Made by a program: the position numbers and the translations under genes
NCBI GenBank assembly: GCA_937958265.1
Contig: CALGNX010000025.1
Span: 1 to 64,000 of the forward strand
Origin: an uncultured Algibacter sp.
Lineage (GTDB): Bacteria; Bacteroidota; Bacteroidia; Flavobacteriales; Flavobacteriaceae
Direction of reading: 5' to 3'
Length of the DNA: 64,000 nt
Notes under the pieces: model-generated
Database searches by the model: none
Told to the model about the DNA's origin: nothing
The model's input: only the letters and a program-made list of their open reading frames with translations
Shown here: positions 19,285 through 62,530 of the stretch, in pieces
How positions within the stretch are numbered: the first letter of the stretch is position 1
Layout: each line of letters starts with the position of its first letter

Positions 19285-19387
19285 GCATTAGGGATTAAGG
19301 CATTTGTTGGAGCTCTTTTTGTGTTGTTGCGCTTATGCAACACAAAAAAGCGACTGCCGAAAGCCCGACCCTTGGGGAATGCCCAAA
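19285..19387 (-). repeat. Interspersed repeat family, copy A (variant centre)
   Basis: Read on the minus strand it begins TTTGGGCATTCCCCAAGGG, then TCGGGCTTTC, and ends AATCCCTAATGC, the same ends as copies B-F. The centre differs: in place of the AAGTCC...GCACCTCC core it has an 11-bp stem, TTTTTGTGTTG against CAACACAAAAA. Length 103 bases. It lies between queA and rlmN. The terminal GCATT/AATGC bases are complementary, as in copies E and F. Confidence 0.8.
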
Positions 19388-19397
19388 TGTATAAAGC

Positions 19398-20611: not shown

Positions 20612-20654
20612 GTAAATAACAGTTTATTATTTAATATAACTACAAAAAGTAACA

Positions 20655-20750
20655 TTTGGGCGTTACCCTAAAAAGGGTCGGGCTATACGCTACAAGTCCT
20701 CGCACCTCCAAAAGTCGGGCTGTGGGCTTTTCGCTGCTATCCCTAACGCG
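20655..20750 (+). repeat. Interspersed repeat family, copy B
   Basis: It starts TTTGGGCGTTACCC and has the core AAGTCCTCGCACCTCC, the two GTCGGGCT boxes and the end ATCCCTAACGCG. GCGTTA at the left end is the reverse complement of TAACGC at the right end. The repeat is on the plus strand in the gap between the minus-strand genes queA and aroA. Confidence 0.88.
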
Positions 20751-34001: not shown

Positions 34002-34094
34002 CGCGTTAGGGATTGCAGTGTAAAGCCCACAGCCCGACCTTAGGAGGTGCGCGGACTTGTAACGTAAAGCCCGACCCTTGTGGTAACGCCCAAA
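34002..34094 (-). repeat. Interspersed repeat family, copy C
   Basis: Read on the minus strand: TTTGGGCGTTACCACAAGGG, TCGGGCTTTACGTTAC, AAGTCCGCGCACCTCC, GTCGGGCTGTGGGCTTT, then CAATCCCTAACGCG. The outer GCGTTA and TAACGC are complementary. It lies between gldA and pta, antisense to both genes. Confidence 0.88.
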
Positions 34095-34148
34095 ATTGAT
34101 TTAATAATACCTAATTAAAATTGTGCGTTATTAAAAAAGCAGAGGTAT

Positions 34149-41808: not shown

Positions 41809-41846
41809 AATTAGTTAATATTTTTTTGTTTACTTTAATAATCTAC

Positions 41847-41942
41847 TTTGGGCGTTACCCGAAAAGGGTCGGGCTTTACGTTACAAGTCCGCGCACCTCC
41901 TAAAAAGTCGGGCTGTGGGCTTTTCTCTGCAATCCCTAACGC
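41847..41942 (+). repeat. Interspersed repeat family, copy D
   Basis: TTTGGGCGTTACCCGAAAAG at the left, then GGTCGGGCTTTACGTTAC, AAGTCCGCGCACCTCC, GTCGGGCTGTGGGCTTTT and CAATCCCTAACGC at the right. It lies between metF and the small gene at 41998, antisense to both. A plus-strand frame that crosses it (41848-42078) is only a translation of the repeat. Confidence 0.88.
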
Positions 41943-48129: not shown

Positions 48130-48611
48130 GCCTTTTATGTGGTATCAAATTTGAATTTATAAAAATAAAACTTATCGTTGTAAATACCCTATTTATTAAA
48201 CATTAAATCCTGCATAGCCTTTAGCGGCCCTGCAGGATTTTAATGTAATTATACTTATTTTTTCTATTTCTTCAAAAAAAACGCTCCAAGCTGCCCCTGT
48301 TTAATCTGTAACCGTATTTGTTGCCAGATTATAACTTTTAAAAACAGCCCCTCTTAAACGTAATGAAACCCTATTTTAATTAAAAACTAAAATTACGTTT
48401 ATTCTATAATTTTTTATTTTGGGCATTACCCTGTGGGTCGGGCTTTCCGCTTCAAGTCCTCGCACCTCCTGCGTCGGGCTGTGGGCTTTCCACTGCAATC
48501 CCTAATGCTATACTTACTAATAATTGAATATAAAATCTAAATTTTTAGTGTATTTACTAACTTAAAGTTTAAATATTCTTAAAATATAGCGTGTACCAAA
48601 TATTTATTAAA
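48130..48611. other. Intergenic region holding repeat copy E
   Basis: This 482-base gap lies between the ferredoxin-NADP reductase gene and cysE, both on the minus strand. It holds repeat copy E at 48418-48508. A palindrome TCAAATTTGA lies about 20 bases before the cysE start and may belong to its promoter. No coding frame, and no SAM or other riboswitch core, is seen. Confidence 0.5.
48418..48508 (+). repeat. Interspersed repeat family, copy E
   Basis: TTTGGGCATTACCCTGTGGG at the left, then TCGGGCTTTCCGCTTC, AAGTCCTCGCACCTCC, GTCGGGCTGTGGGCTTTC and CAATCCCTAATGC at the right. Here the left end is GCATTA and the right end TAATGC, a compensated change relative to copies B-D. Confidence 0.88.
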
Positions 48612-62416: not shown

Positions 62417-62439
62417 CTTTATGTTTTTAAATTATTTTA

Positions 62440-62530
62440 TTTGGGCATTCCCCAAGGGTCGGGCTTTACACTGCAAGTCCGCGCACCTCCAAAAGTCGGG
62501 CTGTGGGCTTTACGTTGCAATCCCTAATGC
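62440..62530 (+). repeat. Interspersed repeat family, copy F
   Basis: TTTGGGCATTCCCCAAGGG at the left, then TCGGGCTTTACACTGC, AAGTCCGCGCACCTCC, GTCGGGCTGTGGGCTTTA and CAATCCCTAATGC at the right. Left GCATT and right AATGC are complementary. It lies between metZ and the homoserine dehydrogenase gene, antisense to both. Confidence 0.88.

Follow-up and report, generated by a model that had tools for sequence, protein, structure and literature searches.

Copy A, the intergenic element between rlmN and queA, is in our assessment (with a probability of roughly two in three) a dispersed selfish DNA repeat of the Flavo-1 family, in which the frame was inherited and the hairpin of the P2 arm was replaced by copying between copies. 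The frame, i.e. the position, the orientation and usually the P1 allele, is inherited locus by locus, and the P2 hairpin differs between species in its class or in its inner stem. The odd centre of copy A would thus be an M3 cassette that now occupies the rlmN-queA frame in this species. The window, i.e. the whole stretch of 64,000 nucleotides that was analysed, contains copy A and five further copies, listed below; the names of rlmN, queA and the other neighbours are taken from Pfam and NCBIfam.

19285..19388, plus strand: copy A, whole element; class M3 centre with the stem TTTTTGTGTTG/CAACACAAAAA, intergenic, rlmN-queA
19285..19290, plus strand: left P1 arm of copy A, GCATTA; found in 6 of the 62 copies of the genome, most having GCGTTA
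19291..19366, plus strand: P2 arm of copy A; GGG/CCC base, A.G mismatch, T-A and W pair, internal loop, centre
~19297-19360, plus strand: presumed exchanged cassette of copy A, inside the P2 arm
19316..19348, plus strand: inner stem-loop of copy A, TTTTTGTGTTG ... CAACACAAAAA; common to four further copies of the genome
19369..19377, plus strand: P3 hairpin of copy A, CCCTTGGGG; identical in the orthologues of G002, G004 and G007
19378..19388, plus strand: right P1 arm AATGC and conserved tail CCAAAT of copy A
20649..20749, minus strand: copy of class M1, W pair A-T, between queA and aroA
34003..34100, plus strand: copy of class M1; Flavo-1 score of 30.3 bits, under the cut-off
41841..41942, minus strand: copy of class M1; in congeners this site is occupied by M1, M2 and other stems
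48412..48508, minus strand: copy of class M1, P1 allele GCATTA; congener G001 has M4 at the same site
62434..62530, minus strand: copy of class M1, P1 allele GCATTA; congeners G002 and G004 have M4 at the same site

The letters of copy A (19285-19388) run from GCATTAGGGATT through TTTTTGTGTTG (19316-19326) and CAACACAAAAA (19338-19348) to AAAGCCCGACCCTTGGGGAATGCCCAAAT. A sequence-only reading of the window had described copy A as an element with the ends of the other copies and a different centre, and the letters agree: the right 29 bases (19360-19388) are the exact reverse complement of 62439-62467 in another copy, and the AAGTCC..CACCTCC core is present in all five other window copies. The same reading had singled out copy A for its strand. 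Within the window the remark is correct, i.e. the relation of copy A to its two neighbours, both of which lie on the minus strand, is opposite to that of the other five copies; it has little meaning, since both relations between element and neighbouring genes occur genome-wide.

The genome (2,888,248 bases, i.e. 2.89 Mb, in 31 contigs) was searched on both strands with a two-ended pattern, which was found at 62 places as compared to 0 for the same pattern written backwards. Copy A scored 46.9 bits (E 1.4e-7) against a structure model built from 28 copies, copy A being one of the training rows. Given the 62 places versus none in the control, together with this score, the element of copy A is not a product of chance. 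All 62 copies follow a common plan, GC(G/A)TTA, GGGAT(T/A), centre, (A/T)AGCCC, GA, CCC..GGG, TAA(C/T)GC and CCAAAT, with few deviations, in single copies. The structure model gave at least 122 genome matches at E 0.01 or better with 150 of the 744 candidates scored, of which the weakest may be chance. The element is dispersed and mostly intergenic, with about 100 copies or more in the genome. Predicted open reading frames of at least 70 codons are overlapped by 10 of the 62 copies; among the remaining 52 copies, 13 lie between convergent and 4 between divergent frames. A strict right-end pattern was found at only 3 places, because it requires a purine before AAYGC.

The centres of the 62 copies were clustered, as the sequence-only reading had proposed, and fall into four classes: M1 (45 copies), M2 (10), M3 (6) and M4 (1). 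The stem of copy A is present in 5 of the 6 M3 copies (5 of 62 overall) and in congeners, and the other types recur as well. The possibility that copy A is a single chance rearrangement, which had been named as the outcome that would speak against a modular element, is excluded by the other non-canonical centres of the genome.

One strand of the element folds as a three-way junction, which consists of P1, a long P2 arm and a small P3 and is followed by the tail CCAAAT, and the stems show compensatory changes. In an alignment of 28 copies, drawn from the window and from contigs of Bacteroidota and of viruses, RNAalifold recovered P1, P2 and P3 unprompted. In a count of 14 pairs, 99.2% of the cells were paired and 4 pairs had double changes; the covariation score was 0.159 versus 0.071 in shuffled alignments (0 of 500 as high), and it was at most 0.052 with the partner slid. 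The W pair of 276 copies was T-A in 248, A-T in 22, G-C in 2 and other in 4 cases, and G-C copies as well as one C-G copy are also among the phylum-wide matches. P1 was GCG/CGC in 188 and GCA/TGC in 21 of 269 parsed copies, with rarer complementary forms; in this count the right arm is the first candidate, so that some of the non-complementary rows are parser slips. The base of P2 is altered on both sides in G002 and G004 (TTAGTGAT with AGCACGA) and in G003 (TTAGCGAT with AGCGCGA).

The P2 arm has an A.G mismatch in 97 of 112 elements, beyond which the copies can be read to form a GNA/GNA or GA/GA internal loop; copy A is of the GA type. The base preceding P1 is T or C in 96% of 274 copies and the CCAAA tail is strongly kept. 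A motif, TTGGCRRAT, is found upstream of P1 in 37 of the 274 copies (2 and 1 in the controls) and may pair with the CCAAAT tail as a further stem. The folding energy of copy A has a z value of -2.2 (6 of 200 shuffles as good), and three of the M1 copies in the window have ordinary energies (z of 0.86, -1.03 and -0.69). The structural case therefore rests on covariation, the folding energy of a single copy being weak evidence. Among the wobble pairs of 112 elements, with the A.G position left out, there are 16 G.T versus 7 A.C, a count that does not separate selection on RNA from selection on DNA.

The rlmN-queA site was compared in ten genomes of the genus, counting this one. In nine of them the element is present, at the same place and in the same orientation; none was found there in G009. 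The centres differ between the genomes. G000, G001, G002 and G008 have M3 with the TTTTTGTGTTG stem, G007 has M3 with the stem CCCGAT..ATCGGG, and G004 and G005 have M4. M1 with the TTTTGCGCC stem is found in G006 and also in G003, where the copy is a damaged mosaic. All 9 genomes share the left P1 arm GCATTA, and the right arm is changed in G003. G000, G002, G004 and G007 have the same right string, CCCTTGGGGAATGC, despite three different centres; likewise, there are three different centres among the G002, G004 and G007 orthologues that share the P3 of copy A. The suggestion that the ends are conserved and the centre is interchangeable is thus borne out more strongly than it was proposed: species that share an orthologous locus differ in the centre found there, and the ends are mostly kept.

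The comparison was extended to 1.72 Mb in the ten genomes, where 17 sites, with 73 elements in all, are occupied in two or more genomes. For this set the anchors of two rows of site 14 were corrected, a row without a class was counted as M1, and sites 12 and 23 were treated as one; seven single-genome sites were not used, and the close pair G002-G004 was excluded from the concordance. The rows recorded as lacking an element are not all truly empty, because the detector missed G003 at the queA site (damaged left end) as well as elements at sites 7 and 19 whose P1 is GCGCAA. The orientation is single at all 17 sites. More than one centre class is present at 10 of the 17 sites, and more than one combination of class and stem at 13.

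The agreement between genomes was counted over 140 genome pairs and compared to shuffled data; note that the shuffles ignore kinship. For the P1 allele 137 pairs are concordant, as compared to a mean of 89.3 after shuffling, and none of 5000 shuffles reached this value; the concordance is driven by three GCATTA sites. The P3 string agrees in 51 pairs (shuffled mean 23.3; 0 of 5000). The centre class agrees in 69 pairs (54.5; 1.5% as high), class plus stem in 38 (24.2; 0.6%) and the W base in 121 (106.5; 0.8%). Class agreement is slightly above chance, meaning that exchange has not erased all history. At the three GCATTA sites the allele is found in 6 of 6, 8 of 8 and 3 of 4 elements. G003 departs from this pattern, with GCG at two of these sites (one such copy was filed apart as site 25 and belongs to the first GCATTA site) and the changed right arm at the third, and these departures slightly lower our confidence in the exchange reading. 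The window proteins of this genome are about 84% identical to those of the congeners, and at this distance no exchange event between close strains was caught, the intermediates being lost. At eight sites where empty and filled states were compared the flanks were too diverged and no clean target duplication was seen, site 2 hinting by eye at a 12-base repeat.

Some P2 variants are specific to this species. When searched as exact patterns, the M1 apex CCCGACTTTNGGAGG has 27 occurrences in this genome and a single one in the nine congeners, and for the GNA-loop form CCCGACGNAGGAGG the counts are 7 and 112, respectively. The T-rich-loop copies of the window (20649, 41841 and 62434) are at sites that are also occupied in congeners, with other centres, so the variant spread into existing frames. 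In other words, the P2 cassette undergoes concerted evolution. Since the variants are species-specific and numerous, the donors are most likely copies of the same genome, i.e. the cassettes most likely spread between copies within each genome.

The replacement of P2 may proceed via non-reciprocal copying between copies, either by ectopic conversion, which is our best guess, or by template switching. The copying would be primed by short sequences shared at the base of P2, TTAGGGATTG on the left and AAAGCCCGACC on the right, and hairpin breakage or looping-out would perhaps start the exchange. The fold would then be retained because it allows the element to be copied, and transcription of such a selfish DNA repeat would be incidental. 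A point against conversion is that the shared flanks are about 10-20 bases long, which is a poor substrate for ordinary recombination when the classes differ. A bolder version, which we consider unlikely but worth stating, is a dedicated exchange of hairpin cassettes. Here the conserved P2 base would be recognised by an activity, either cellular or linked to the element, which would excise one folded hairpin and insert another, so that Flavo-1 frames would be docking sites for single-stranded hairpin cassettes in Bacteroidota; inner palindromes that also occur in other repeat families would then count as additional cargo. No specialised enzyme came to light, Y1_Tnp being the only family searched for.

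The sequence-only reading left the choice between a mobile and an RNA element, and this choice is only partly settled: Rfam already files the family as an RNA candidate, and the data presented here favour a repeat that acts at the DNA level. If the element were a true small RNA, or an RNA of 3'-untranslated regions, the strand would be transcribed, the fold would bind a protein or stabilise messages, and the element would tolerate different centres because only the junction would matter. The Rfam type (Gene; sRNA) agrees with this, and the covariation, the kept A.G mismatch and the GNA/GNA or GA/GA loops resemble an RNA fold; the excess of convergent over divergent placements points the same way. 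However, the copies stand in both strand relations to their neighbours, the Flavo-1 matches of F. psychrophilum lie on either strand and many of them outside transcribed regions (PMC9723704, in the portion available), and some 100 copies whose centres turn over inside a genus are unlike genes, so that we regard this explanation as rather improbable. A second alternative is that whole copies are lost and then re-inserted at preferred places in the manner of MITEs, the differing centres being independent insertions. A multi-copy, mostly intergenic element with sites that lack it and with 14 to 95 copies in each congener would suit this scenario, and the P1 allele of G003 at two of the three GCATTA sites is what re-insertion would give. 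Independent insertions are not expected to have the same orientation at all 17 sites, however, nor to repeat the uncommon GCATTA at the same loci under differing centres, nor to leave CCCTTGGGGAATGC identical beside three different centres at one locus; we hold this alternative to be very unlikely.

REP- and BIME-type repeats are moved by a REP-associated tyrosine transposase (RAYT), and the present element resembles them in being folded, in having tens of copies and in containing nested palindromes. This genome also has one Y1_Tnp-like domain, and the relative G015 has 14 Y1_Tnp matches and 13 copies of the element. Nevertheless, the domain of this genome is buried in a 1057-aa Eco57I/N6-methylase-like protein, with no element in the 4.9 kb examined around it; G007, G026 and G012 have 85, 19 and 18 copies and no Y1_Tnp match at E 0.001, whereas no copy was found in G016 and G019, which have 4 and 6 matches, respectively. 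The orientation of the element does not, moreover, follow the replication direction in G007. A RAYT flanked by the repeat was not found in the genome, and we rejected a RAYT/REP origin as unnecessary and give it hardly any credence, preferring the exchange of hairpins between inherited frames. An integron attC origin was also rejected. attC arms have the consensus RYYYAAC ... GTTRRRY, and the arms of the present element run GTT..AAC, i.e. the reverse.

The only Y1_Tnp match of this genome at E 0.001 lies within that methylase-like protein (L051:1582-4755, contig C27:52081-55254), where residues 456-555 form a Y1_Tnp/RAYT-like domain; the protein is also BREX PglX-like, below the cut-off. Y1_Tnp matches in long open frames (1144-1302 aa) are found in G001-G004 as well, and G005 has no match at E 0.001. 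A preference for one replication strand, as known from single-strand transposons, was considered on contig 1 of G007, using 59 of its 60 places and sampled GC skew, and was rejected: there are 25 plus and 19 minus copies at 0-1.34 Mb, where the skew is mostly negative, and 9 and 6 in the rest. The copies of this contig do form orientation blocks, with 16 plus and 3 minus at 0-560 kb, then 8 and 7, and then 1 and 9 at 970-1340 kb, which do not fit the replication direction.

The two-ended pattern is present in 24 of the 60 genomes of a search among relatives, this genome included, and in all 9 congeners. A stricter pattern was found in 18 of 198 genomes of the phylum, again including this one, although some of the single matches are probably chance. 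Among the matches listed are Flavobacteriaceae, Chitinophagaceae, Pedobacter, Mucilaginibacter, Bacteroidales, a Bacteroides fragilis plasmid and four Treponema contigs. The Treponema contigs (L120, L145, L155 and L157), which are outside Bacteroidota, have the same core, with complementary P1 arms in 4 out of 4 cases. Next to the plasmid copy (L148:6798-6886) are annotated genes for a recombinase family protein and an ArdC-like ssDNA-binding protein. This plasmid region is matched by 32 plasmid records, a number that refers to the region and not to the element. The pattern is also matched by 28 viral contigs, and a search of a phage collection gave a single 29-base match with an E of 1, which is not real. 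Other palindromic repeats, of the TCCCGATAGCTATCGGGA, CCTTTCGACT..CTCAAG and CCTGCC types, are nested in the element or replace parts of it; they are located at P3, at the apex of P2 or within the loop, e.g. in L102, L195 and L141 and also in G002 and G003 copies.

The relation to Flavo-1 (RF01705) was examined with Rfam scans. In a permissive scan copy A matches the full length of the model with 22.5 bits, which is less than the gathering cut-off of 42, and the M1 copy at 34003..34100 is also under it. The G004 orthologue of copy A at the rlmN-queA site passes with 60.3 bits, and so does L008, another copy of this genome, with 68.3 bits. Copies with a ATCCTTTT-type centre account for the 12 of 15 scanned loci that pass the gathering score; the three that fail it (L154, L167 and L183) all have other centres. 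The base pairing of P2 and the internal-loop pattern of Flavo-1 were recovered, as read from model alignments of other copies and from pair counts that include copy A. Copy A is therefore a relative of Flavo-1 by its core and locus, and not a member by the Rfam score.

Flavo-1 has been an RNA candidate since 2010. In the part of Weinberg 2010 at hand (PMC2864571) it appears as a table row with the marks y, n, n and Bacteroidetes, and the excerpted text of a 2022 review (PMC9029176) merely lists it. According to the corresponding portion of Guerin 2021 (PMC9723704), the Flavo-1 matches of F. psychrophilum fall without distinction on the sense or the antisense strand of mapped transcribed regions, many being outside such regions, and this gave no real clue to function. 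The portions of these three sources that were at hand do not describe an exchange in place or a P1/P3 frame for Flavo-1. Literature searches with the core letters of the element gave nothing relevant by title among the matches listed, those with the inner palindrome gave unrelated matter only, and none was found on the concerted evolution of such repeats. The family is thus already listed, and the exchange of centres in place, which like the anatomy is well supported, is new. If the element is indeed a DNA repeat whose frame is inherited and whose hairpin is exchanged, this would explain why the Flavo-1 matches ignore the transcript strand and why the Rfam model sees only part of the family. 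The element is also a natural system for studying the mutual conversion of folded DNA repeats, owing to its short exchange boundaries, the locus tag provided by P1 and the many comparable congeners.

Compared to known systems, the element shares with Flavo-1 the same P2 base and the GNA/GNA loop, and the ATCCTTTT-type copies also share its centre; the Rfam model differs in that it covers the P2 arm only, with a single centre type and without P1, P3 and the tail. BOX of Streptococcus pneumoniae, as described in the accessible part of PMC3049150, is similar in having conserved ends, a variable middle module, a dispersed distribution, a predicted fold and an enrichment between convergent genes. 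The likeness concerns these described traits, and BOX varies in the number of boxB modules whereas here one hairpin is replaced by unrelated ones. BIMEs, for which we rely on the same part of PMC3049150, are likewise mosaic palindromic intergenic repeats with tens to hundreds of copies. In contrast to BIME/REP-RAYT systems, the present element was found without a RAYT association and is built on a different frame, i.e. the three-way junction.
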